A stretch of DNA of 64,000 nucleotides from Ianthella basta (taxonomy: Eukaryota > Porifera > Demospongiae > Verongiida > Ianthellidae), in assembly GCA_964019415.1 (NCBI GenBank), contig OZ025871.1:4370129-4434128 (forward strand). The letters are read 5' to 3'. Numbering within the stretch: position 1 is the stretch's first letter; each line of letters starts with the position of its first letter. Position numbers and translations under genes: made by a program. Of this stretch, positions 4,516 to 59,242 are shown piece by piece. The notes beneath the pieces are model-generated. The model searched no databases and was not told where the DNA came from. It worked only from the letters and a program-made list of their open reading frames with translations.

Positions 4516-5170
4516 TTTCTCTTTCCTTTCTCGCCCTGAGGTGTATTTGTGAGTATGCAATTGCAAATGCAACATGCATTATACACTAGCAGACTGATGG
4601 TCATGAGCTGCTGGAAGACTTGCTGTATACACAGTATAATTACAGCCCATATTAATGTGCAGGTTGTACAGACAATACATAATATGTGGTGCAATATATG
4701 ACTGAAGTTTTGCTTGCATAAATGCAAATGTCTGCTTCTAGAAGCTATTCAGTGAAATGTGCCCACCACATTTTCTGTTATTCATGGGGCAGTTGTGCAT
4801 GTGGTGTGGGCCAGGCCGGGGCTGGTGAATCACTAACAAGATCACAGTGTGTACACAGTGTGTACACAGTCATCATATGACTCACCTCCCTGTATGCATG
4901 CTTGCATGTCATGCACCAATTAACTCACTCACTTCAGTTTCCCTAACCACATTTGGCATTGTGTAATATGTTTTTTTAAATATTGTCAGTCCTTTATTGA
5001 TCTTACCACATGTAAAGGGGAATGCATTCTATACGAAATGACACACCCCTGTAGGCTGAACAATGTGTGTCCATCTCATGCTGTGCTGTTCAAGGGTCAG
5101 GTACGTACATGTGGCATTGTATCTGGGGAGCTATATAGGAGATGCAAGGGGGTGGCCCATTACTAAACGA
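4516..5170. other. No gene recognised
   Basis: This is AT-rich sequence with short direct repeats (GTGTACACA twice near 4855) and GCATGC runs. No exon with paired splice sites and no element end was found. Confidence 0.5.
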
Positions 5171-5174
5171 ACAC

Positions 5175-5184
5175 TATATATAAG
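5175..5184 (+). promoter_or_regulatory. TATA box candidate upstream of signal-peptide exon
   Basis: TATATATAAG lies 181 bases before the ATG at 5365. That distance leaves room for a 5' leader. It is the only strong TATA motif just upstream of that ATG, though such strings are common in AT-rich DNA. Confidence 0.3.
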
Positions 5185-5364
5185 GGAATGTACAAGGCAC
5201 GTGATTTGACACATTACCTAATGGATTGCCTGGGTGTAGTATTATAGGGTACCTGTGTAGAATGTGTGGCACTTGTGAAATAAAGAGTTGATCAGATATC
5301 TTTCCACTCCTGTGCTTGCTCCACTTCACTGCAGCTGAAACCAGTTCCCTGTTCACCTGTTGAG

Positions 5365-5410
5365 ATGAAACTGTTTACTCTCATTGAGATCTTTGCCACT
5401 ACTGTTGCTG
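5365..5410 (+). CDS. First exon encoding a signal peptide
   Basis: The ATG starts MKLFTLIEIFATTVA, a short charged start plus a hydrophobic core typical of a signal peptide. The exon ends in phase 1 at a strong donor (GCTG|GTAAGC). It would send the product to the secretory pathway, which suits the Cys-rich exons downstream at 7347-7764 and 9136-9556. The link to those exons is inferred, not shown. Confidence 0.45.
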
Positions 5411-12740: not shown

Positions 12741-12965
12741 CTATGGAGCAATAATTGTGGCGTCATATCCGTCATTTTGCGGAATCCCCCTCCACTTCTT
12801 TGGGTCGTAGGTAACTGTGAACGCGATCGGTGTCTTTGGATCCTTCCCCAGGATCTCTGTTGTCACTGAGGACCACAAGAAGGTGCGATAACGTGTACTA
12901 TATTGCTCCTTCATGGAATTTCCAACTTTCGCTGATAGACTACTGGTAAGGTGAGTTTTTATCAA
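12741..12965 (-). CDS. Short ORF of unknown function
   Basis: On the minus strand, 74 codons run to a TAG, with unusually even, protein-like composition (FLWSSVTTEIL, TVTYDPKKWRGIPQ) and CpG-rich codons unlike the surroundings. It adjoins the hairpins at 12591-12735, so it may be carried by the same element. No family recognised. Confidence 0.3.
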   Translation of the reverse strand: MIKTHLTSSLSAKVGNSMKEQYSTRYRTFLWSSVTTEILGKDPKTPIAFTVTYDPKKWRGIPQNDGYDATIIAP

Positions 12966-13212
12966 CTCTACCTCCTGAGAATCGTAGTTTCATCCATCAA
13001 ACGTCGCCCTTTACTGAAGTGTGGCGGATCTAATCTCGCTTGCTTTCTTTGTTAATCATTGATTTGTCACGTCCCTTCTCTCTGTATACGCTATGTTAGC
13101 TGTTTGTTTCGTGCCGCCTTCTTTACACGTGTAGACAGATGTATTGCTGACATGCGTTAGATCGAGAGATAATGTCTCTATCTTGTTCCCTCATTCTGTC
13201 CTGCTGTAGACC

Positions 13213-13492
13213 ATGAGACCTGATCGGTGTAGAGTGTACACTGCACCTGTCCGCCGCCTCCCTCATACACCGTACATCCTGGTCTACTTCAATGATGCCA
13301 CACTCGGACGTATTGGAAAACAGATGAAGCTCCTTCTGCTAACACAGATTATTGTTGTCTTCATTCTGTATCTACTCCTTTTACTAACACTGACAGTTGT
13401 TCTCAGTCTGTATTTTCTATATCTGTTGGCTGTGGAAGAGCTCAGCACATCTCCAATACCATTGATATCAAATAGTGGAATGCTAGTATCAG
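13213..13492 (+). CDS. Putative membrane protein, first exon
   Basis: The ATG at 13213 opens 93 codons to a good donor (TCAG|GTAGGT). Residues about 38-75 are one long hydrophobic stretch rich in Leu/Val/Ile, long enough for one or two membrane passes. A further piece (VAAIGVLY, 13622-13645) continues in phase 1, and a downstream frame at 13700-13930 (LPNKCLRVMIWICDKVKKSG) could follow. The family is unknown and the gene is unproven. Confidence 0.4.
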
Positions 13493-13699
13493 GTAGGTGC
13501 AATGAGTGTTGTATGTACAAGAGTTTGTGAAGGGAGGAATGGGGTAGACCTGAGGATTGTATAATTATGTTACTATCCTGCTGTTGAGAGACCTCACTGA
13601 CTTCATACACTTTGTTATCCAGTTGCTGCTATTGGCGTATTATATGGTAATGACCTCATCTGGAGTAATGAACGTTGATTTCTTCACTTCCGTGGGTGG

Positions 13700-17668: not shown

Positions 17669-17900
17669 GTGTACGTAATTCCTGAAAAGGTGGACAGTCT
17701 ACCCCATCACTTGCTCAGGAAATGTTGCAAGAGATTTAAATTGGCTCTGAAACAGATTGCTGCACCAGTCGGCAAGTCCCTTCAGCAAGCTGTGGCAGCT
17801 GGTCTGTTCATCTGCCAAGTCCTTTCATCACTTCTATCAATAGCTGCTCACTCTTGTTCAGCTGAGAGCAAGAGAAGTCACAGTGCAGCTTCATCAGCAG
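17669..17900 (+). CDS. NLR gene model exon 2, hydrophobic segment
   Basis: This is a phase 0-to-1 exon of 77 codons between TTCTTGTAG and CAG|GTACAG. It begins VYVIPEKVDSLPHHLLRKCC, with a basic segment, then a hydrophobic run (AGLFICQVLSSLLSIAA) that may span or insert in a membrane. The family is not recognised. It belongs to the part that a working 2A would release as a separate protein. Confidence 0.55.
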
Positions 17901-19746: not shown

Positions 19747-19903
19747 TCTTGTCCATCACTCCTTGTTACGATGCTCTCCTCACAGGTCCTACCCTTGTTG
19801 GCCCAAGCTGTATCTGTTACATTTCTCAGCCTCCTGTTGATCTTGGCTGGAGATGTAGAGGTCAATCCTGGCCCTGGAAAGGGGAAAGAGAGGGCAGCAT
19901 CAG
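19747..19903 (+). CDS. NLR gene model exon 5: hydrophobic leader plus 2A-like motif
   Basis: A phase 0-to-1 exon runs between TTCGTAG and TCAG|GTTTGT. It has a Met at 19771 (A at -3), a Leu-rich hydrophobic run (VSVTFLSLLLILA), then GDVEVNPGP at about 19846-19872, which is the complete D-V-E-x-N-P-G-P consensus of 2A ribosome-skipping peptides. Known 2A peptides halt peptide-bond formation between G and P, so the upstream chain is released and synthesis continues from P. N-terminal 2A-like segments that can also act as signal sequences are known from some invertebrate NLR proteins. Exon 6 (CARD) joins in phase. Function here is inferred. Confidence 0.7.
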
Positions 19904-20069
19904 GTTTGTTTTGGAAGCATTGTGGTAGTGTGTGTTGTGGGAAACTTCTTCAGACTGACACACAATTCAAGTAATATGTGAACTTAGCATTGGTACGTGT
20001 ATTTCTTCACCATCTATTAATATGATTATTTGTGCGAACATATAACGGATTGGAAACTTGGCATGTCAG

Positions 20070-20138
20070 TTACACTTGTGGGAAGATTTGAGGAAAGGGA
20101 CACTTATACAGGATATTGGGCTACAGGATATTCGACAA
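20070..20138 (+). CDS. Possible optional exon between 2A and CARD exons
   Basis: A 69-base piece between ATGTCAG and CAA|GTACGT would fit in phase 1-1 without changing the frame. In another frame it reads LWEDLRKGTLIQDIGLQD, which loosely echoes the RKGVITQDIQKL of the CARD exon. It may be a decayed partial exon copy. Confidence 0.25.
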
Positions 20139-21015
20139 GTACGTATGATGTTATAAATTAATCAGAATCATATGAATTGGTTACAAGTTTCTGCACTTGG
20201 TAAAATTCTACACATAGCATGAAGTGACCCCTTTCTCAAATCTGCTCACATTTGTTAAAGTTGTTACAATAGCCACAGTGCAGGTTACATCACAGTGTGC
20301 ACTGCTCTGTGCTGTATAGATACTTTCTGTGTTTATCATTTCCCCACCTGCCTGAGTGATGTTGAAAACACTTCTCAACATGAGAAATGTTTAACTGCTG
20401 TACTCTAATCTAGATGTGTTTTGTAGCATTAAATCTAACCAGAATACTGGCAAGTGTTTGGAGGAGGAATGTAGACACTAAGTAGAAACCATACTCATCA
20501 CTTTCAACACAGAACTGCATCATGTCTTGAAGTCGTCTGAAAGACAACCAATTGTAATTGTGTGGTACTGGACACTGTTAAGTTTCATAATCATGTCTGT
20601 GCATGGGTGTGACGCAAGTCTTTAGTATGGAGATTATATAAAATACCATGTAAATTACTGTTGTGCATTCTGGTGGAAAGGCTGAATGACAATTGTGCTG
20701 TGAAGTACAAGTCATCATTCACAGCATAATTGCCCTGTCTAACTTCTTCATGGATGTAAGGCGTTCAACTTTCCTGCGCTAAAATACAAATGATGATGCA
20801 GCCACTCACCAAAAGGATTTGGTTTATTGGTGTATCTTTAGAATGGAATAGTTTAGAGACTAATCCCACTCTGAAAAGTTAGAGAATGTAATTGTACTGT
20901 TAATGATGTCTTGCTTTTGTCAGCCAGCCTTTCTCTGAAAGCCAGCATGCTGAAACCATATTGTTTATAGAACATTACCTTTTTTTATGTAAGATGAACG
21001 AGTCAGTTGTAACCA

Positions 21016-21240
21016 TGTTAAGTCTAATGAAAGTCACGACTCGGAAGAAATGTTGGAAATATAGGGAAATTGGCACTGTTCCAGCTGGTTCCACTGGAAT
21101 TGTTCCGGCCTGGTTGGTTGGCTTGGGCTGCTAAAACCCCGCGTTAGGGCGTAAGTTGTCCTGGGTTCGGCTGCCAGCTGGTGCCAATTTTCCCTTTCCT
21201 TCCAACATTTCTTCCGAGTCGTGACTTTCATTAGACTTAA
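21016..21240. repeat. Inverted-repeat element with about 60-bp arms
   Basis: 21016-21075 and 21180-21240 are near-perfect inverted copies (TTAAGTCTAATGAAAGTCAC outermost). The centre has GGCTTGGGCTGC and GGGTTCGGCTGCC, faintly like tRNA A and B boxes. It ends 110 bases before the CARD exon. Probably a MITE or a SINE-derived foldback. Confidence 0.75.
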
Positions 21241-21350
21241 CACAGGACATAACCTGCATGCAAATTTCATGCTATGTTCTTTGTGCTGTTATAACACATA
21301 TGCTCATATGGACTCTTCCTTTACCATATTTGCATTCCTACCATCTTTAG

Positions 21351-21623
21351 TTCTCCAGAAATATGAAGATAAATTTTTTGAAGTCATTGATGCCAAATGC
21401 AATCTGCTCCAATTGGTGCGCAAAGGTGTCATCACGCAAGACATTCAAAAGCTTATCACAACCAGCAATGATGCCGATGGCAGAGAGATTTTGTTTAATC
21501 ATCTCAAGCATCACAGCAATTTAGATACTCTTAGGGAGTACTGTAAGGTCGCCTTTGAAACAACTGGCTATCCTAACATGCAGAAACTGGCAGAAAAGAT
21601 CATGTCTGAGCTGCCACAAGGAG
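21351..21623 (+). CDS. NLR gene model exon 6: CARD-like death-fold domain
   Basis: It enters in phase 1 after ATCTTTAG and leaves in phase 1 at GGAG|GTTGGT. About 90 residues run LQKYEDKFFEVIDAKCNLLQ, then LVRKGVITQDIQKL, then LFNHLKHH, then YCKVAFETTGYPNMQKLAEK. The spacing of helix hydrophobics and the KGVIT..DI and L..HL blocks match caspase recruitment domains. CARDs bind partner CARDs in immune and cell-death signalling. It lies directly after the 2A exon and before NACHT, the expected order for an NLR. Confidence 0.7.
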
Positions 21624-21762: not shown

Positions 21763-22560
21763 TTAGTACAAGGCCCTAGATAGGAGACAGTTTGTTAGTG
21801 TAGTCTTTCTGGATGTATCTAAAGCTTTTGATACAGTTAGTCACAATCTTCTCTTGGACAAGCTCTCCAAACTTGGTCTCTCTCCATCTGCCATCTCTTG
21901 GGTCAAGTCCTACCTTTCTGATCATTGTCAGGTCACCTGTGTTAGTGACTCCTTCTCTTCTCCCGGTTTTCCTTCGTCTGGTGTTCCACAAGGCTCTGTG
22001 CTTGGTCCTTCTCTTTTCTCTGCTTTCATCAATGATCTTCCTTCGGTCTTACCAGCTGATTCTGTTGTCCTCTTTGCTGACGACACTGCTATCTATATCA
22101 TTAGTAGCAATCTTGCTCCCCCGAACACTTCTCTCCAACAACATGTGGATGCAGCCAACTTGTGGATGACCAGCATTGGGTTCTGTCTGAATGCTAGCAA
22201 AACGAAATCAATGCTGATTCACTCCAGGAGACGAAAGCTGGAAACTGGTCTGAACATTCATGTAGATGGTGTGGCTGTTGAGCAGGTGCAGGTGCACAAG
22301 TACCTTGGTGTTGTCCTCAACGATTCTCTAACTTGGAGTGATCATGTACACATGGTCTGTAGAAAGGCAAATTGAAGCCTTAATCATCATTAATCTTCTT
22401 TGTACACTCTCTTGGTTTCTCCCTCCCTCTCTTCTTCTCATCTATCTCAAATCTTATGTCCTTCCCCACTTCGATTACTGTGATGTTGTGTGGTCAAGCT
22501 GCACTCAAGAAGAATCACGTCGGCTGGAATCTCTTCTCAACTTTGGGTGTAAGTGTGCAT
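21763..22560 (+). mobile_element. LINE reverse transcriptase fragment (CR1/Jockey-like), 5'-truncated
   Basis: The frame carries RT motifs in order: VVFLDVSKAFDTVSH, GLSPSAISWVKSYLS, SSGVPQGSVLGPSLFSAF, and the catalytic FADDTAIY. After them come CLNASKTK and YLGVVLNDSLTW, then a frame change near 22370 and SYVLPHFDYCDVVWSSC. Endonuclease and ORF1 parts are absent. It lies in the long intron between the CARD and NACHT exons, in the same direction as the gene. Confidence 0.85.
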
Positions 22561-22900: not shown

Positions 22901-24448
22901 TAGAGATCCCTTTCCTATTCCTCCATTCTCTCTGCGTACGTGACTAAATTTTGTGTTGAAATGTTTTGTGGTTGCCACAGACCACGAAAATATTTCATGC
23001 AATAATTTATGACCCAGAAATTTTCACAAACACAAAAATTTCCTGAATACAGTATGTTGTGCATTGAACAATGCCATCCTTGTCTGTCTGTGTCTGTCTG
23101 TGCCTTTCCAAGAATTACCACTTGGGCATTTAATGTCGTATTACCAACTTCATTTGCAGTGGTAATTTGATGCAATATCCTTATTAGTACAGATCATGAT
23201 AGAGTTGTACAGCTGTTCCTAATTTTCTCTTTGCGGTACCTGTCTGGCTCTGATCAAGCTGAGCCTTCTGAAGAATCATGTGAACTTACAAAGATCAAAA
23301 TTGGGCACACAGAAGTTGCATTATTTACATAGGGCATTACCACATGCTTATACCTCATATGCAGAGGTTAAAGGGCTGTCAATGCATGATGTTGATGACA
23401 ATACACTAACTCTCTGTAAGCCCTACACTGGTTAAGCAAAATATCCACTGGGCAAGGCTGCTCTATAGGTAAATTGGACATTGGAATATAGGATTGGATT
23501 GGATAAAGTCATTACTAATATGTTCCTGAAGGGAGAGGGGATTGTGAGTACAGCATGGGCACCTGAGTTGTTCAAAGATAGCCATACCGATTGATTGTTT
23601 GCACTAGCACATGGGTCTCTATAATCCACTTTTCAAATTGTCCTGCTTGTTTTCTGTCCCCACGTGATGATGCACATTCTCAGTCGTCTATTGACAAAAT
23701 TACTGGTTTGTCTGTCTTACTGTACTCTGCAGATGACAGAGGAGGAGAAATAGGGCAGCCAGGTGGAGTGTCTACCTTGCCATCTTGTAGAGAAATGGAG
23801 GTTAGCCCAGCTGAAGTGTAAGGGTTTCTGATATGTCTGTGTTTATTAGGTGTGTGGGTGTATGTGCCTTCCACCATCATCAATAGAAGGATATTACTAA
23901 ATGTTTTGTTGCTGTATTCAACTTACTTCATAATTTTGTGATTGACCTGTTCATGTGCTGAATTTTGAGTGCAAGTTAATTATTGGGTGATTAGCCGTAA
24001 TGGAATTGGTTCTCTGTTTATTCTGTGCATCCTGTTGCCATTACAACTTTTATATGATTTCTAAATCTTGTAGACTTGTCTTAAGCTTTAGCGCTGGAGT
24101 CTAGATCCGATAGTCATCCTCCGTAAGCAGAGTATGCGGAGGTCTAAAACCAATAGATCCCTCAGACACAATGTGACATCATTATAGAATGACTTGAGGC
24201 ATTAATTGCTACGAGCAAGACACCATTTTGCAATATGTACGTAACACACGATTTGACCTTCATTCTCCACCTCACCCTAACCCTAAGACCACACCACAAA
24301 ACAGCAAAGCCATCTGGGATGGGAGACTAGCCCTCCACCATATTTAGAGCACTTACCACTTCTAGGAATTGCAAGCCTTACAAAGATTACCCTGACCCAT
24401 ATGCATGCAGTTAGCACTCGGACTCCGTATGTAAAAACTACAGATACA
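22901..24448. other. Intron sequence, no exon recognised
   Basis: It contains short frames only. A patch at 23640-23820 is open but has no matching splice sites. Confidence 0.4.
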
Positions 24449-29341: not shown

Positions 29342-30992
29342 CAATTTTCCAAGACATTACAGGATCATTATGCAAAGATAAAGGTAGTGGATGACAAATG
29401 GCGTAAACATCAGTCAATGGAGTTTGTCAAATTGTCTCTCTCTCGCTTTAAACTGGACTTTGAAGATGAACAGAAGAAGTTTGTTGAAGCTATTTCTGAA
29501 CCAGAAGGAGTGGACAAAGTATATACTGTGGTGAAGAATGCTAAGATTGTGTATGAGGACATCCCAGCCATGGTAAAGAAGTTGAAGCTTGTTGTGATCA
29601 GTGGTGCTCCCGGTGTGGGTAAGAGCACACTGGCCAAGAAACTTTGCCAAGATATATCGAACAAGATTAGTGAACATGGATATAATCTGGTGCTGTTGGT
29701 GGAGCTGCGAGACATGATCGCTTTCAAAGACCTCGATGTGCCTTTTGAACTACACCATCTTCTACAGTTATTCTGCAATACAAAGGCCAAAGCAACTAAT
29801 ATTGCAAAAGAGATGCTGGCTACTGGTGGTAGAGGCATCCTTCTCATTTTTGATGGATATGATGAACTTCTACAGGAACTTCGTGAATCTCCTTTTTTCC
29901 TCAATCTACTCATACACTCCCCAAGATCCCCTCTGCCTGAATGTGATGTAGTGCTGACATCACGCTCCATCGTTACAAGTCAAATCTACCACCAATTTCA
30001 AAGTTCTAGCATTGCATGTGATTTTGTGAATATTGAAGTGCTTGGGTTTACCAAAGGACAGATAAATCGCTATGCCCAACTGTACTTTAAAGAAGAAGGG
30101 AAGCCAGAATTGAAAGATTCATTTGCAGAGAGAATCAGTATGCTACCTCAGATTAGGAGTCTGTGTTCCATCCCTATTGTTTTATCTATCATTTGTCGAG
30201 TGTACCTGAAATACAATGACCTACCATCTACATTATCAGCTGTCTATGAAAGGTTTGTAATTGACAAGCTGCTAGTCAACTCTGTTATTGCGGGTAGGCC
30301 TGGATGTGTTCAGTCTCTGCTGGACCTACCTGACGATCATACATTTTACAGCCTTTGTGAAGTTGCATTTTTGCGAGTCAAGGAGCAGAAGGTAGTCTTT
30401 TTGATGGATGATGACCAGAAGGTGGGAATTTCTTCAGCATACTCTGACAGAGCTAATGGATGTGGGCTGCTAACAGCAAGACCAGTTAATGAGTTTGGTT
30501 TTGCAGTAGTTGCAGTTGACAGTTTCTACTTTATCCATTTGACAGTGCAGGAGTTCCTCAGTGCCATCCACATCTCTAGACTGGACATTGCAGCTCAGAA
30601 AGAGATCTGGAGTGAGTACCTTGGACAGCCCCACATGGCCCAAGTATGGAAGTTCTATTGTGGAATCACCAGACTGGAGAATTTTGAAGCTTTGCAGCTG
30701 AACTCAGAAGTTTGTAATAAAGAGGTCTTAGTGCAGTCTCTCTTTGAGTCACAGAATAGTGCTGTGACTAAAGAGGCAATGCAAGCAGCTTTCGGTGACA
30801 GCCCAGAAGTGAAGCCAAGGAGTCCATACAGTGCAATTGCCTATGGTTACTGTTTGCAGCAACACAAGAGCATGAAGGAGCTCAACGTCTTGTGTGCAAA
30901 AAGTGTGCGTATTCATCTTGGCAACCTTCTCTCTCCTGTGCTTCAGACAGCTTCTGGTTTGCACTTGATACTTCGTAACTGTCACCCTAAAG
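29342..30992 (+). CDS. NLR gene model exon 8: NACHT ATPase domain
   Basis: A single 550-codon exon, entry phase 0 after CTCCATTCAG, exit phase 1 at AAAG|GTGAGC. The P-loop GAPGVGKST is at 29603-29629, the Walker B ILLIFDGYDEL at about 29837-29869 and the sensor TSRS at about 29957. A winged-helix-like part follows, with the conserved FIHLTVQEFLSA word near 30530, and the end (LHLILRNCHPK) begins the LRR part. NACHT proteins bind ATP and oligomerise on sensing microbes or stress. All catalytic residues visible are intact, so it looks functional. The frame stays open past the donor to 31072, which could serve a short isoform. Confidence 0.95.
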
Positions 30993-32738
30993 GTGAGCAT
31001 AGGATGCATGCAATTGACTGTCTCCACTGTGTGTTGCAATTATTCAGTACATGTATAATACTATTCACCTAGACTTGTGACAGTGTGTACTAATGAATCG
31101 TTCATTAATTCCACTGTGAGTGCTAGTTATTGATGCTGTATCATTCACCAGGATTGCTGGCTCCTTTTATATATCAAATCTGTGTAGGTAGCATATTTGG
31201 TTTGCCTTACCTTAGTTAATTGATGTATTTATTGTGTGACTGTGAATTATGGATGATATTCACTTTCACTGATGGCTGAGATAATAGCGCTTAGCGCTGA
31301 CTGATCACAGTGGAGTTGCCTTTGAGGAATGTATATATAGCTGATTTTGAACCACTTAGCTACAGTGTGCCTTTAAACTCAATGTAATATTTTGGCAACA
31401 GATAATTATTGTTAATGAATGTGTATGTATTCAGCTACTTCTACATATGATAGCATCAACTGTGCTGTTTGTCTTTACTATTCTAACAGCTGTTCCATCT
31501 CAAATGAACCTGATAGTAAAATGTATAGCTTAATGTCTTTTGCTTTAGTGATACATCTGAAACTGGATGCAGTTTATTCCCGTATCTCTCTCTACTAGAG
31601 AACTTTAGATTCTTTTACTAGTAACACGTAACCTGTAACCGCAGTCACAGGTCACACATTTCTGTGAATATGAGGATAAGTTCGCTTTAGATTTCCCGCA
31701 CGCACAACCTGTAATGTGTAAGAAGCCTTTGTTTACTTAGCTCACACAGCTAATCTAGAAGTATCTCTTGCAGATGAGATGTAGAAGACAAGTTGCATAC
31801 TCCTATACGATGAAAGGAGACAGCAGCAACGAGGAGGGCGTTTTTGGAATGCCTTGTATGCGCCCAAAGTCCGGTCAAACGAAACTCTTTTTTGCTCCAA
31901 AATCTTGGTGCCGCTATATCTGCCCAGTCTTGAAGCTTGCTGCGACGGCAGGAGATCACTTCACGGGCGAGAGCCAGGTCGTGCTTCAGTTCTGGCCACC
32001 AAAATAGAGGCATCTTCCAAGTTTTCTATAAAAAAGAGCAGTTGCAGAAGGGATCTGAAAGCGCTTTCTCCAATCAAGGTGTCAGAGCAGAGGTTGGGTT
32101 GTACTGTAAGAAAGATGGTACATGAGAAAGCTGTGTTATCCGCCGTGTACATGCACAGGTAAATGGTATAGGCGTAGAAGCTGGTCTACAGGTTGATAAC
32201 GTGTAGCACGTAGTGGTGACTTGCGGTTTGCGGTTGCGCACGTGACTTTCCCACACTTTACAGGTTAGGCGTAGGTCAAATTACACAAATCTAAATGTCT
32301 CTAATGTCTGTTGTAAGATTTATGTACAGACTGCAATTATACGTGCTCTGTGTGCAGCTCTCATACACTTGTTAGTGTTGTCAGTGTCTGCTCTGCAATC
32401 GGGCCACTAATAAAATGTTTGGCTCTAGATGCTTAGTAGTGGTTTGCAATGCTGATGGGACCCTGCTGCATGATAGACTGTGTTTGCACATTTTGCTGCC
32501 TGTCTGTCTATAGACTGGAAAGAAGCTAGCGATTGCCTTACATCTTCAGCAGAAGAATTGAGTGCTTCACTTGACTCAAGCATGACAGGTAAACCAGTGT
32601 CCTCAACCTCTTTGTATGAGTGTGTTCAGAGCCATGACGTACAGTCTGGTGGAATGTCTGTTTATTGACTTAGCTGGTCTGCTAACAAGTATAAGGTAGT
32701 GAAACAGCAGAGAGCTGCACTACTCCTGTGACTGAAGT
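30993..32738. other. Intron 8, with SANT-like element fragment
   Basis: No LRR exon was found here. 31740-32160 is CpG-rich and holds the minus-strand fragment listed separately. The remainder is AT-rich and without recognised features. Confidence 0.4.
31750..32152 (-). pseudogene. Possible Myb/SANT-like fragment of a transposon gene
   Basis: On the minus strand one frame reads LFWWPELKHDLALAREVIS, then LQDWADIAA and FRLTG. This resembles the first helix of Myb/SANT-like proteins common in invertebrate genomes (WPEVKHD...LAxEV). The expected later helices are missing or out of frame. Local CpG content is above the surroundings. Confidence 0.3.
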
Positions 32739-33451
32739 GCTGAAGACTTATACCCGCTGTGCACATGTCACTTCTTCAATTTTCAATGTGCAATTTTGAT
32801 CTCCATATATTTGCTTCTCTCTTCTACAATTAAGCTATAATAATCTTGATTAGATTGAAACAAAGATCAGAAGGAAGACTAAGAGTTTTTCTGTAATCCC
32901 ATTTATGACTTTTGTATAAAGTATATTGCTCAATGTGTTTGAGATATTTCACTGTCAAAGGTGACAGGTATGCAGCAAATGCCCTAGCAGTCTGAGAGGA
33001 AGGCTGCAGAAAGTAGAGAATGGTATGATCATTCGAAGTAAAATCTTATTATCTAACTTTTACATGTGGGCTGGAGCTGTAAGCCATTCCATTCCACAGC
33101 TATGGCTTGAAAACTGTTGCAGCTACTACTAGACATCAAAGATGTCGGGTCCTGTGACTTGCTGAAGAAACCATGCATAGCTAATGCCCACATAGAATGT
33201 TTCAATATTTCATTTACTAACCATTTTAATCTCCAGAGAGTGAAAAGCTCCCTCAGTGAAGACTGCTGAGCCAAATTGTCAAGGAAGTGCCATTTAACGT
33301 TCTTGACTAACTGTGTCACATGACCAAATGAAGTAAAGATTGCCTGTGTTGTTGATACATGACCATTAACTTGTAGGACTCTATGGTGCAATAGAGATTG
33401 AGGAATTTAGTCTTCTCTAGTAACTTGTGCATTGTCACCTAAATCCCACAG

Positions 33452-33581
33452 ATGATCACGTACACAGAAAAGTGGCATGTGTCAATTTAGACGAAACCCA
33501 ACTTGATGTAGTGTGTGAAAGCATATTCATGTTTAGTCATGTGGAGGATCTGAAGTTTACAGGCATCAAGGACCCCCTGAA
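33452..33581 (+). pseudogene. Duplicate LRR exon with damaged donor
   Basis: It has the same acceptor (AATCCCACAG) and protein style as 34547-34677: HRKVACVNLDETQLDVV and FSHVEDLKF. At the 3' end the sister has GACAG|GTATGG, but here it reads CTGAAGTGCC, so the normal donor is lost. The exon is probably skipped, or uses a weak GT that shifts the frame. Confidence 0.65.
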
Positions 33582-34546
33582 GTGCCTAAGACTTATACTT
33601 GCTCTGCACATGTCCGACATTTCTTCAATTTTCAATGTGCGATGAATTTTGATCTCCGTATATTTGCTTCTCTCTCCTACAATCTGACTACGTATAATAA
33701 TCTTGATTAGATTGAAGCAAAGATCAGAAGAAAGACTAAGAGCTTCTCTGTAATCCCATTTATGATTTTTGTAAGAAATATTGCTCAATGTGTTTGAGAT
33801 ATTTCACTGTCAAAGAAGGTGATGGTGAAGGTATGCAGCAAATGCCCTAGCAGTCTGAGAGGAAGGCTGCAGAAAGTAGAGAATGGTATGATCAGTTGAT
33901 GTACAATCTTATTATCTAACTTGAACATGTGAGCTGGAGCAGTAAACCATTCCATTCCACAACTATGGCTTGAAAACAGCTGCCACTGCTGGATGTCAAA
34001 GATGTCGGGTTCTGTGACTTGCTGAAGAAACCATGCATAGCTAATGCCCACATAAAAAGTTTCAATATTTCATTTACTAACCATTCTAATCTCTGGTGAG
34101 TGAAAAAAACTCAATGAAGACTGCTGAGCCAAATTGTCAAGGAAGTGTCATTTAACATTCTTGACTAGATGTGTCACATGACCATCTTGTGACAAGTTGT
34201 GCAATGAGAACAACATAATTATACTGGCGAATTTTGCTCCTATACTCTAAACTGGCTGTGAATCATTCAAGGCCAGTTCAGAGTAGGGTAATAGAGTAGA
34301 GTAGTAGAGTAGTGAACATGTTCAGTTGGCTTCAAATTGCCTATTCCCAAGAAGCACAGGACAAGGGAAGCATGTTTGTGGACCATTTCGTGTGCCATTG
34401 TCCATATATTATGTGCAAATGAAGTAAAGATTGCCAGCTAGTGCTGTTGATACATGACCATTAAGTTTTAGGACTATATGGTGCAATAGAGAACGAGTAA
34501 TTTAGTCTTCTCTAGTAACTTGTGCATTGTCACCTAAATCCCACAG

Positions 34547-34677
34547 ATGATCGTGTGCAAAGAAAAGTGGCATGTGTCACTTTAAAAGCTATCCAACTTG
34601 ATGTGGTGTGTGAATGCATATTCATGTTTAGTCATGTGGAGGATCTGAAGTTTATGCACATCGAGGACCCCCGACAG
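34547..34677 (+). CDS. NLR gene model exon 9, LRR type 1
   Basis: Phase 1-to-0, acceptor CCCACAG, donor GACAG|GTATGG. It reads RVQRKVACVTLKAIQLDVV and FSHVEDLKF, ending DPRQ. The LxxL.F pattern is a leucine-rich repeat strand. The exon at 40491 is a paralogue with the same phases and length, showing that LRR exons were made by duplication. Confidence 0.65.
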
Positions 34678-36188
34678 GTATGGCTGTGGTGCAGTGTGTA
34701 TATGGGGTAGGAACAATGGCACTTGATAATTTGAAAGCTTGCTACAATTTAACTAATCATTATAATAGTTCTTATATCACCGATTGCACTGATTGTGTTA
34801 ACCTGGCTAGTATTGACCCATTTGGAGTCCTTTCCATTATTTTATAGTTACCTTGACAATGTGTAACAATGCATGAATGTAGTCTCATGATATCCTTATA
34901 CTGTATCTCTTCTGAAGATTTGCTGTTACATGCATCATTCCGCTGTAGTAGTAAATCAAACGTTACAGCACTAGAATTGATCCCTGTGTGTTTATGCACA
35001 GCTGTTTTGTATGTACCTAATTCAGACAAATTGTACTGTAAAGTGGGAATAATTATTATAGCAAATTGCTATTTTGTATATGTCTTAGTCATACGTATTC
35101 ACAAGACATGACACATGAAGGCAACGAAGAAAGCATAACTTGTGCATGGCCACTTTGCTGGCTTCTGATCGAGTGGATCCATGTGTGCACCTTTTCCTAA
35201 ACATTCACAGTACACATTTGACCACTTGTGCGCAGACTACCTTGCTGTGTTCAGTCCAGCACTCTATTTAGAATGTGAACAGCATACTTCACTCAAACCA
35301 ACACACAACGGAAATACTGAAGCTGTGTGTGCACTTGTGGCCTACAGACTGATTTACCCATGGTGGCAGCTGGTGTGTAATTATATAATGGGCCTGCACT
35401 AATCTTCACAGCAAGCAATATTTGCAGTGTCTAGTACAACTCTCAATACTCTCATTTGGAATTGCTCCCTGGGAACAGCATGGACCTCTACCGCCAGTCA
35501 TTGCAATTTTGCCTGCCTTGTTGCAGAATTAAGATGGTTTCTGTTGTGAGTGCACATTCACGTGACTTTCTGAGTTCATTGAAAGTTAGGAGCAGCAATG
35601 TATTAGTCTAGTGGTAGTACAGTCAAATGTTGGCATAGACATCGGAACACTATTAAAATGGATGGATAAGACTAATAGTGTTTGCTTGCGTATACTTAGA
35701 TATGTAACTTTGTGGGATTACTTAAGTCAGCTGCTAAGTCGGGATGATAAAGAACAGTCTCTGTGAGGTGTATACTTAACAATTGCAAAATCTGTAATAC
35801 AGTAGTTCAAAAGTGGCCAAATTAGCTAAACCTGTGCCAACTTTAGGCTATAAGCTAACTGCTTCCCTCTAAACCTGCTTAGCCTGCTGCTGCATCTCCA
35901 TTCTGCACTTAAATCATCCACTGACACTTGGCTTGTGACGATGTAAGGCTGTAGTATGTAACAGTGGACACAACAGAGAAGCAGTGCATGGAATGGCTTC
36001 CTATGTCACCAGTCAAGTTCATCACCATGATGTGGCCTAGGTCTTTCGTAATTGAAAGAACAGGAGTAAAAGCAGCACTTGATGGAAGACCTGTACTGAC
36101 TCGGGCTCCTCAAATCAGTATAGTCCTTGGACACCAGGACTATGACGTGTGAGAAGACTGAAGGGGGCTGTCCGCTTCTAAGGAAACT

Positions 36189-44414: not shown

Positions 44415-45310
44415 TTACACACAAGAGTCACAAAAAAACATAGCTGGGATATCAAATTCATTTACACTTGTGCACTGAATATGGTACCAAGTGTCACATT
44501 TATCACAGCATATCCAACGAGCAGTTTCCAAATCACGCCTGCATACAGGACATTCAACATCTTCATCATTGTCGGAGATATGGAAGGCTTCAAATAGAGT
44601 GTCAAGATCTACAGTATGACTGTCTTTTCTTGAGGTTTCTTTCGTTCCAGCTTTCTTGCTCATTTGTTTTTTATCTGTTCTCTTCTTCAGTTTCTCTACA
44701 TCTCTCATCTTCTTCACTTTCTCTTCTTTTTTTCTTTCTTTCTTTGCCTCTGCTTCAGCTTTCTCTTTCTCTTTGCCTTTCAGTTCCTCAAGAATTTTCT
44801 CATCAGTTATACATACGGCTTTGCTGTTCACACTGGCCTTTTTCTTTTTGGAAGATCGTTGAGGTAGAGGGAGTGACAGAAGGTCACTGAGCACATCAGT
44901 TGACGTAGTAGTGCTACTTGGTAGCGATGTGGGATTAGCAACAGGGCTAACATCAGATCTAGATGTACACGATGCAGGATGGTTCAGTGACACCCACACT
45001 TCGTACTTTGGATCAGGGACATCGTACCCTTCTTCGAACCGTTTCTGATAAAGCGTCTCCTCTTTCTCTGTAAATTGGATAGTAGTGCTCTTAGCACTTG
45101 GCTTCTCCAATTCTTCAGCAGATTTACTGAACACTTTGGAAGGTGCCAGTTGTCTGTCATCAATCTGACCAGGGTTCAGTGGGTATATTCCACACTTTCG
45201 GAAACCACTCATTATGTTAATTGGTGTTAAGGACTGTGACCATGCCTTCCCTACGAGGGATGCCAGGACATCTACAGTGACAACTCGTCCTGGTATTTCC
45301 CCTGTATACT
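44415..45310 (-). pseudogene. pogo-like transposase, C-terminal part with PHD finger
   Basis: On the minus strand, this frame picks up after a frameshift near 45290. It begins around GRVVTVDVLASLVGKAW and NIMSGFRKCGIYPLNP, the conserved tail of pogo/Tigger DDE domains, then a Lys/Glu-rich coiled segment, then a zinc finger with CPVC...WICCDKCDTWYHIQC and closing CDSC. The Cys4-His-Cys3 order is a PHD finger, a reader of histone tails. No stop occurs before the natural end. Together with the upstream ORF it would make one protein of about 640 residues. Confidence 0.85.
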
Positions 45311-46327
45311 GCTGCAGGCCTTGTGGAAATGTGATTTAAATGATTTGAATACACCAACATCCAGTGGCTGCAAAATGTGAGTAGTGTGTGCCGGCAAGCA
45401 TAGAAGGTATATGCCATTTCCACGGGCAAGCTCAATAAGATTGATTGACACATGTGAAGTATGACCGTCTTGGATTATCAGAACTGGTCGAGCAGGTGGA
45501 ATTTGGTCAATAAAAAATTGCAGCCATTCCAGATACAGCTCACTATTTATCCACCCATTTTCGGAGGTCTTAAAAATTGAGCCAGCAGGGGCTCCTTCTT
45601 GGTATGGCTCAGGAACAGGCTTCTTGCGAGGGTAGATTAGCATAGGGGGCAGGGCAGACCCAGCCGCATTGACACAAGTAACAACCGTATGGTTTCTTCC
45701 CTTTTCAGCTGATGTCAAAGAATACACATGTTTCCGTGATATTTCTGTGAGAACCTTTCCTGGGACGTGAACAATGTTAACACCTGTCTCATCTACGTTG
45801 TATATTTGCATCGGCTTTGTGAACAGATTCAATCGCCCACACAGAGCTCCCAACTTGGCAAAGAAATCTGCAATGACATCTTCATTTGAACTTATTGCTC
45901 TGCAGCGAGACAGTGGCTGAGAAGAACGAAGAGTGAGATGAGGATGACGGCTTAAAAACCCTTCGTACCAGCCACGTCCAGCCATGCTATCATGGAATGG
46001 GTGAGGTTTCTTCATTTTCTCTGCAATTTGAAATGCAAACCACATCACGTCTTCTCTACTAAGACCAAATCCTCGATCAGCCATCTCGATGCAATACTCT
46101 TCCAAACGACTTTCTTCATCCTTGCTTAACACTGTCTGTGGTCCTGGTCTACAGTCGATATCAACCTGACCACCCACTCTCCTTCTCAAAGTCTCAATTG
46201 GCACATTGTATCGCCTATGTGCTTCCCGCAAAGAACAGGATTTATTGACAACCGCATCTACAGCTGCTATCATACTTTCTGGACTCCACAGTTTTCGCTT
46301 TTTTCCTTTGGTGGCCATTGGGAACAC
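45272..46327 (-). pseudogene. pogo-like transposase, N-terminal and DDE part
   Basis: 351 codons begin MATKGKKRKLWSPE with a Psq-type helix-turn-helix (MIAAVDAVVN, SLREAHRRYNVPIETLRRR), then a CENP-B-type DNA-binding part (EEYCIEMADRGFGLSRE, GRGWYEGFLSRHP). The catalytic acids are visible in YNVDETG, IIQDGHTSH and LQPLDVGVF. A one-base shift near 45290 ends this frame and continues it in the next. Everything else is intact, so inactivation looks recent. It cuts and pastes the element at TA sites when functional. Confidence 0.9.
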
Positions 46328-57599: not shown

Positions 57600-58860
57600 C
57601 TACTCTAGGAGGGCAGTGTACACCTCAGGCAAGGTTCCCTTCTCCCTATTCAGTGCATCCGGGTTCCGTTGTATATGCCAACTCTCCAATAGGCAGCGTG
57701 TGGTGGCATATGGGTGACAGTCAATTACTTCTGACTTGGTGAGATCCACCAGATGACCTGTTGTGAGGGTGTGTTCTGCGAGGGCCGATGCTGCCACATC
57801 TCCATTCTTCAGGGCACGTCTGTGTTCTGCCAGCCGGTGTTTGAGGCTCCGGCCAGTTTGCCCAATGTACACCTTGGAGCATCCATCACAAGGCACGCTG
57901 TACACAACCCCCTTCCGTTGGTCCATTGGTACTGGATCCTTGGGGTGCACAAGTAAGCTGCGAAGAGTGCTTTGTGGGCGGAAAACCACCTTGATTTCTA
58001 GCGGTGCAAGAATCCGTCTTACTGCCTCCGAAAGACCAGCAATGTAAGGGAGGGTCAGGGTTGTTCTGGGCCTCTGGTCATCCATTTCCCGTCTTGGTCT
58101 CTCCACGTCTGAGGATGAAAGAGTGTTGGCTCTGGTCATGAGGGTCCTTACCACAGCTACCTTGTGTGCCGTTGGGTGGTGGGATGTGACGGAGAGGTAT
58201 TGGTTGGTGTGTGTGGCCTTCCGATACACCGATGTAGTGACAGTGCCATCACAATCCCTGCAAAGCTGTACATCCAGAAAAGGTAGCTTCCTATCACCAG
58301 ACTCCTCCTCCACTGTGAATTGTATGCATGGCTCGATGCAGTTCAGGTGCTTATGGAAGGGCTCGACCATGTCCCTGGGGAGAGCTGTGCACGTATCGTC
58401 TACGTAACGCTTCCAGAAGCGGGGAGGGGAGGGAAATGTGGACAGGGCTCTCTCTTCAACATCCTCCATTACCAGGTTGGCCACAACCACAGACACAGGC
58501 GACCCCATCGCGGTACCATGTACTTGCCGGTACACCTTCCCTCTGAAGGACAGGTAGGTTGCGTCAAGGCACATGGTCAGGAGATCCACGATGTCATCAA
58601 TGTTGAGGTCAGTCCTGTCCTGGAGGGAGGGATCATTCTCCAGTCGGCGGCGGGCTACCTGGACAGCCAGCCCCGTTGGGACACAGGTAAAGAGGGATAC
58701 CACATCAAAGGATAGTAGGATCTCATCCTCTGCCAGGGTCTGTGTCGTGATGAAATCAACAAAGGACTTTGAGTTCCTCGCATAGGAGCTAGTCCGTCCG
58801 ACAAGTGGAGCTAATATGCTGGCCAGGAACTTGGACAGCTGGTATGTCGGAGGTGGTTTT
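57600..58860 (-). CDS. Penelope-like reverse transcriptase with GIY-YIG endonuclease, N-terminally truncated
   Basis: An uninterrupted frame of over 400 residues. RT motifs: LLSFDVVSLFTCVPTGLAV, the GTAMGSPVSVVVANLVME block, catalytic RYVDDT, and RKLPFLDVQLCRD. Then a linker and the GIY-YIG nuclease: GVVYSVPCDGCSKVYIGQTG, RSLKHRLAEHRRAL, ALAEHTLTTGH. Penelope enzymes reverse-transcribe RNA at a nick made by this nuclease. The N-terminal third found in full elements is missing, because the copy joins the inverted one near 58850; the first ~20 codons of the open frame come from that joint. No stop inside, so insertion is recent. Confidence 0.9.
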
Positions 58861-59242
58861 CCGCCCACAAAGCACTCTTCGCAGCATACTTGTGCACCCC
58901 AAGGATCCAGTACCAATGGACCAACGGAAGGGGGTTGTGTACAGCGTGCCTTGTGATGGATGCTCCAAGGTGTACATTGGGCAAACTGGCCGGAGCCTCA
59001 AACACCGGCTGGCAGAACACAGACGTGCCCTGAAGAATGGAGATGTGGCAGCATCGGCCCTCGCAGAACACACCCTCACAACAGGTCATCTGGTGGATCT
59101 CACCAAGTCAGAAGTAATTGACTGTCACCCATATGCCACCACACGCTGCCTATTGGAGAGTTGGCATATACAACGGAACCCGGATGCACTGAATAGGGAG
59201 AAGGGAACCTTGCCTGAGGTGTACACTGCCCTCCTAGAGTAG
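58850..59242 (+). pseudogene. Inverted partial copy of Penelope ORF (GIY-YIG part)
   Basis: It reads VVFRPQSTLRSILVHPKD then the same GIY-YIG domain to the same stop as the minus-strand ORF, with only a few changes (for example I for L in RSILV). The RT part is absent. It would make no working enzyme alone. Confidence 0.85.

Follow-up and report, generated by a model that had tools for sequence, protein, structure and literature searches.

To our knowledge, StopGo (2A) sequences in cellular genes are thought to be very rare, the NLRs of sea urchins being the standing example. In 2013, Odon et al. reportedly described 2A sequences of APE-type non-LTR retrotransposons. According to the accessible part of Roulston et al. 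(2016, PMC4981915), an N-terminal 2A sequence of a sea urchin NLR skips (~80%) and can also act as a signal sequence. The elements of this kind in Strongylocentrotus purpuratus, SpNLR2A, are described there as 26-residue N-terminal elements, some of them "within the N-terminal region", in which D(V/I)ExNPGP follows a hydrophobic run. The StopGo sequences of RNA viruses include an L-rich class, in which the core octapeptide comes after an L-rich hexapeptide ending in (A/S/C)G before D, and motif 6 of this class was assayed and found active, as stated in the accessible part of Li et al. (2026, PMC12846837). Within our literature coverage, outside which most subscription journals fall, 2A sequences in NLRs appeared only in Roulston 2016 and in the accessible text of PMC12846837 and PMC11512398, both of which cite Roulston.

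Here we analyze 64,000 nucleotides of the genome of Ianthella basta (contig OZ025871.1, positions 4,370,129 to 4,434,128), referred to as the window. It is likely, in our assessment, that the 2A motif found there is the internal StopGo site of a fused gene, placed between a membrane-anchored polypeptide and a CARD-NACHT receptor. As in SpNLR2A (PMC4981915, accessible part), a hydrophobic run comes before the motif, which in turn precedes the effector and NACHT domains of an NLR family, and a dual destination is possible. Unlike SpNLR2A, the motif appears to be internal, behind a polypeptide with hydrophobic stretches, and the effector domain has a predicted CARD-type fold. The core octapeptide and L-rich hexapeptide are shared with the L-rich class of RNA-virus StopGo sequences (PMC12846837, accessible part), but the motif belongs to a cellular gene with introns and not to a viral polyprotein. 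A hydrophobic context is also present before the 2A of APE-type non-LTR retrotransposons, which seem common in this genome; there, 2A precedes an endonuclease and a reverse transcriptase, whereas here it precedes CARD and NACHT. The features of the window gene are as follows.

13213..13492, + strand: exon U, probable start exon, ending in phase 1 (suggested by ORF, donor, paralog alignment and hydropathy)
17669..17900, + strand: exon W, open, phase 0 to 1; 232 nt, as in L019 and L022
17999..18095, + strand: exon Y, phase 1 to 2, with a hydrophobic stretch; 97 nt, as in L017, L019 and L022
19549..19687, + strand: exon X, phase 2 to 0, basic; 139 nt
19747..19903, + strand: 2A exon, phase 0 to 1; encodes a hydrophobic run followed by GDVEVNPGP
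19849..19875, + strand: StopGo core GDVEVNPGP, predicted skip between NPG and P
21351..21623, + strand: CARD exon, phase 1 to 1, predicted CARD fold
23733..23800, + strand: short linker exon, phase 1 to 0; the prediction uses only its splice sites and phase
29342..30992, + strand: NACHT exon, phase 0 to 1, with an open frame spanning 550 codons

The 2A motif and the receptor exons

The GDVEVNPGP of the 2A exon agrees with the core consensus (D/G/C/N)(V/I)ExNPGP and comes after a Leu-rich run, as judged from the sequence and its hydropathy; an in-frame ATG at 19771 lies before the motif. By eye, the LLILAG ahead of DVEVNPGP fits L-rich hexapeptide motifs 2/6 in the accessible part of PMC12846837, and thus a described upstream context that is permissive for StopGo. 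A preliminary description of this DNA had noted the full D-V-E-x-N-P-G-P consensus after a Leu-rich run, in an exon ending in phase 1 whose next compatible exon is a CARD. We find the same at 19849-19875 and from 19903 to the predicted CARD fold of 21351-21623. Its reading of a 2A-like segment in frame with the CARD of a NACHT receptor agrees with the L-rich context, as in active StopGo elements, and the precedent in invertebrate NLRs on which it drew is found in sea urchin NLRs (Roulston 2016, PMC4981915, accessible part).

According to prediction, the exon at 21351-21623 is a CARD-type fold and provides the N-terminal death-fold domain that characterizes an NLR. Pfam gave no match on this exon and, on seven paralogous death-fold exons, one weak CARD match (L037, below the curated cut-off), with none or spurious families for the others. 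The NACHT exon matches Pfam NACHT at 3.2e-18, and its nearest solved relatives are NLRP3 (E 1.2e-8). Alignments with paralogs end before the linker exon. A scan for LRRs downstream of NACHT in the window gave nothing convincing; LRRs occur in the relatives P0094 and P0113. Two similar tandem stretches of ~1.1 kb at 32690-34680, after the NACHT exon, contain by eye possible LRR-like short exons. Just 5' of the CARD exon, at 21020-21240, there is an inverted repeat by eye, possibly a MITE.

Exons upstream of the 2A exon

Exon U has its ATG at 13213, with an in-frame TAG two codons upstream, and encodes a hydrophobic stretch of more than 30 residues. Compared with one paralog, A5156, divergence is 0.02-0.08 without gaps at 13189-13518 and 0.09-0.19 with gaps at 12829-13218. 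Its homologues in six C2-type loci have a conserved ATG, an in-frame stop just 5' and a hydrophobic stretch.

On the 5' side of the 2A exon, a set of exons with constant phases recurs in eleven C2-type loci; all of these exons are open in the predicted frame. With lengths taken at explicit splice sites, exon X is 154 nt in all 11, exon W measures 235 nt in 8 loci and 232 nt in 2 (10 measured, L017 left out), and exon Y has 100 nt in 8 loci and 97 nt in 3, that of L021 having a GC instead of a GT donor. An in-frame, pyrimidine-rich acceptor lies 114, 123 or 126 nt before DVE in the 2A exon of 8 C2-type loci; other in-frame acceptor candidates rank first in L014 and L022, and the 2A exon of L027 is one base out of frame with its exon X. 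Length differences of exon Y and of the 2A exon are multiples of three except in L027. Exon X aligns without a single gap across the 11 sequences, and the stretches around it are gap-rich. In the window, the phases of W, Y and X match those of the C2-type exons, X being paired with its C2-type counterpart by position and phase; sequence similarity between the two is absent at E 0.1.

Between U and W lies a further exon, V, which has an open frame in the four C2-type loci displayed. In the C4 family it is broken, by a stop in the window and in A6766 and by a 1-nt deletion in A5156, and a search for an intact V exon of this family found none. The use of exon W in the window gene is therefore uncertain, and the window may splice U to Y. 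Codon-position bias in the C2-type upstream exons is weak in X (0.13/0.145/0.197) and absent in W and Y; among C4 paralogs, with bounds of Y and X slightly different from those listed above, substitutions in exon Y favour the first codon position and not the third. The coding of the upstream exons therefore rests on frame, length and phase. At the start of L015 (C2:3607000-3616000), an unrelated ORF beginning MEKYKRFCRVCCGLL is located ~3 kb upstream of the 2A exon.

An internal 2A is also present in uninterrupted ORFs of a second source. Searched against proteins, the spliced model retrieved 111 of them, mostly single NACHT exons, and a second search contributed the best 120 of 613 relatives. 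Among the 229 proteins compared in total, 8 carry the motif internally before NACHT, and all 8 proteins with the upstream segment retain it. NPG ends at residue 46 to 100 in these ORFs; in P0094, an uninterrupted 1240-residue ORF, two hydrophobic stretches precede an NPG ending at residue 100, followed by NACHT and LRR. At E 0.001, a typed version of their upstream segment matched nothing in this genome, an empty answer that shows little; the 8 ORFs therefore seem to derive from a different animal or assembly. A short unspliced intron may be part of the stretch after 2A in these ORFs.

These observations bear on the N-terminal, signal-like leader that the preliminary description had proposed. 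Such a leader, of the sea urchin type, would start at ATG 19771, with skipping giving a cytosolic receptor and failure to skip a secreted or ER-targeted one. The ATG is present in the window and in most of the 27 copies of the 2A exon on chromosome C4 (the window and 26 of 29 other listed copies), a hydrophobic run precedes 2A, SpNLR2A6 offers a precedent with ~80% recoding (PMC4981915, accessible part), and the coding signal of the upstream exons is weak. However, 5 of the 27 C4 copies lack a Met before the motif, another carries a stop in that stretch, and the 2A exons of L016 and L019 also lack Met (seven paralogous exons in all, including the five on C4), so that the 2A exon cannot serve as the translation start throughout the gene family. 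Further arguments against a leader, which we regard as unlikely, are the conserved exons that lie upstream in matching phase and the internal position in the second-source ORFs. Because phase-matched exons extend upstream to ATG 13213 and seven paralogous exons are Met-less, the N-terminus is probably not encoded by the 2A exon. The part of the preliminary reading that places 2A in frame with the CARD of a NACHT receptor is supported, and the leader is the less likely reading.

Conservation of the motif

The 2A motif is under selection. DVEVNPGP is intact in 27 of 27 C4 copies, its eight codons varying at 0 nonsynonymous and 3 synonymous positions. Over the 35 codons before the motif there are 18 nonsynonymous and 9 synonymous variable codons, and over the nearest 18 there are 6 of each; all of these are small numbers. 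A 2A exon that does not skip, joined to the receptor and encoding only a hydrophobic, membrane-inserted segment, is improbable: L-rich runs could by themselves be transmembrane, but conservation falls on G-D-V-E-x-N-P-G-P with x free and DVEVNPGP in every C4 copy, and LLILAG has the form of the L-rich class, which the accessible part of PMC12846837 reports as active.

The donor CAG|GTTTGT is also kept in the 27 C4 copies. The sequence 3' of it falls into three intron types (14, 8 and 5 copies), the exon being conserved in all 27, and one copy of the second intron type precedes a different death-fold exon (L037; Pfam CARD E 0.023, below the curated cut-off). Because of the three intron types and the different L037 exon, the 2A exon resembles a module that has been combined with different gene bodies. 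The CARD-like domain of L037, at 5101-5400 (+), follows an identical copy of the window 2A peptide and has a phase-1 acceptor by eye.

A second type of 2A exon, with motif and ending in NPGPMERG, is found at L010:5491-5922 (-), MPISNEQWR...GDVEANPGPMERG, and has 78 protein relatives. These were found by similarity over 144 residues, the motif included; 69 of the 78 carry the strict motif and 9 do not. In their alignment, G, D, E, N, P, G and P are 95-100% conserved, V 92% and the free x 57%, with blocks outside the motif at 69-86% on average. The MERG-type exon has 109 matches in the genome, many of them interleaved with window-type 2A exons on C2 and C4, and one match lies ~1.1 kb past the window end. 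In L010, too, it precedes a death-fold exon and NACHT.

Genomic frequency and pairing with CARD exons

Searching the 209-Mb genome with the back-translated motif gives 302 occurrences, against 0 for the motif read backwards. From these we read 28 loci, 8 from the top of the listing and 20 picked by hand, and sorted them by eye: 15 are retrotransposon-like, 11 have the window-type 2A exon and 2 the second type. Since 15 of 28 are retrotransposon-like, the motif alone is no proof of NLR membership.

The association of 2A with CARD exons was counted from the best 90 of 150 scored CARD-exon matches (659 candidates) and the best 90 of 133 2A-exon matches at E up to 10, on the same strand and within 12 kb. 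Among these 90 CARD exons, a 2A exon is located upstream of 17 of 18 at ≥75% identity, that is, at least 75%, 29 of 36 at 60-75% and 1 of 36 at 45-60%, or 46 of the 54 closest versus 1 of the 36 more distant; the middle class rises to 34 of 36 once hand-listed MERG-type motifs of one chromosome count. The downstream control for the same rows gave 0, 2 and 0 in the three classes. The 2A-CARD pairing is not due to chance. Moreover, 2A, death-fold and NACHT exons follow in this order on one strand in 6 of 13 fetched 2A loci (L010, L011, L015, L016, L021 and L027), and in the remaining 7 not all three exon kinds were seen in the stretches fetched. Acceptors of the death-fold exons in the paralogs displayed are phase 1 by eye. 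The 2A-CARD-NACHT order thus recurs across diverged paralogs on several chromosomes.

That the window motif is left over from an APE-type non-LTR retrotransposon and is unrelated to the receptor, as the 15 of 28 loci resembling such elements and the reverse-transcriptase fragment at 21767-22375 might suggest, is highly improbable, since the next phase-matched exon encodes a CARD and no endonuclease or reverse transcriptase follows 2A in frame, the fragment sits beyond the CARD exon, and the order of exons recurs in the paralogs. An ancient retrotransposon origin of the 2A exon is possible.

A model for a probable fused gene

If the motif is an internal StopGo site, translation would begin at exon U, and U, Y, X and the 2A exon would encode a membrane-anchored polypeptide of ~214 residues, or a longer one where V/W-type exons are included. 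Most ribosomes would skip the bond at NPG^P and release the membrane part, then continue into an untethered, cytosolic CARD-NACHT receptor whose first residue is proline. Non-skipping ribosomes would produce a membrane-tethered receptor (leaky skipping). Two destinations may in this way be reached by membrane tethering and not by a cleavable leader.

Tentatively, an entire clade of animal innate immune receptors may be organized as StopGo polyproteins, with dozens of genes whose single ORF yields both a CARD-NACHT receptor and its membrane-anchored partner at a fixed ratio, plus a leaky tethered form, and with the partner exchanged while the 2A junction and phase-1 intron are retained. Unlike in SpNLR2A, three upstream segments that seem unrelated by eye (U-type, MERG-type and P0094-type) occur here. 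Were the internal arrangement true, an animal lineage would be using ribosome skipping at large scale, each immune-receptor gene giving two products, and what the separated membrane part does would become a direct question. Caution would also be advisable for 2A "N-terminal leaders" annotated in other NLRs, which may be internal with their upstream exons missed.

Mobile elements in the window

The reverse-transcriptase fragment at 21767-22375 (+), in the intron after the CARD exon, matches Pfam RVT_1 at 4.4e-24. A DDE_1 transposase with HTH_psq and a Tc5-type HTH is located at 44415-46327 (-), next to an ORF with a PHD finger at its end. An ORF at 57600-58997 (-) has weak RVT_1 and GIY-YIG matches and resembles a Penelope-type element.
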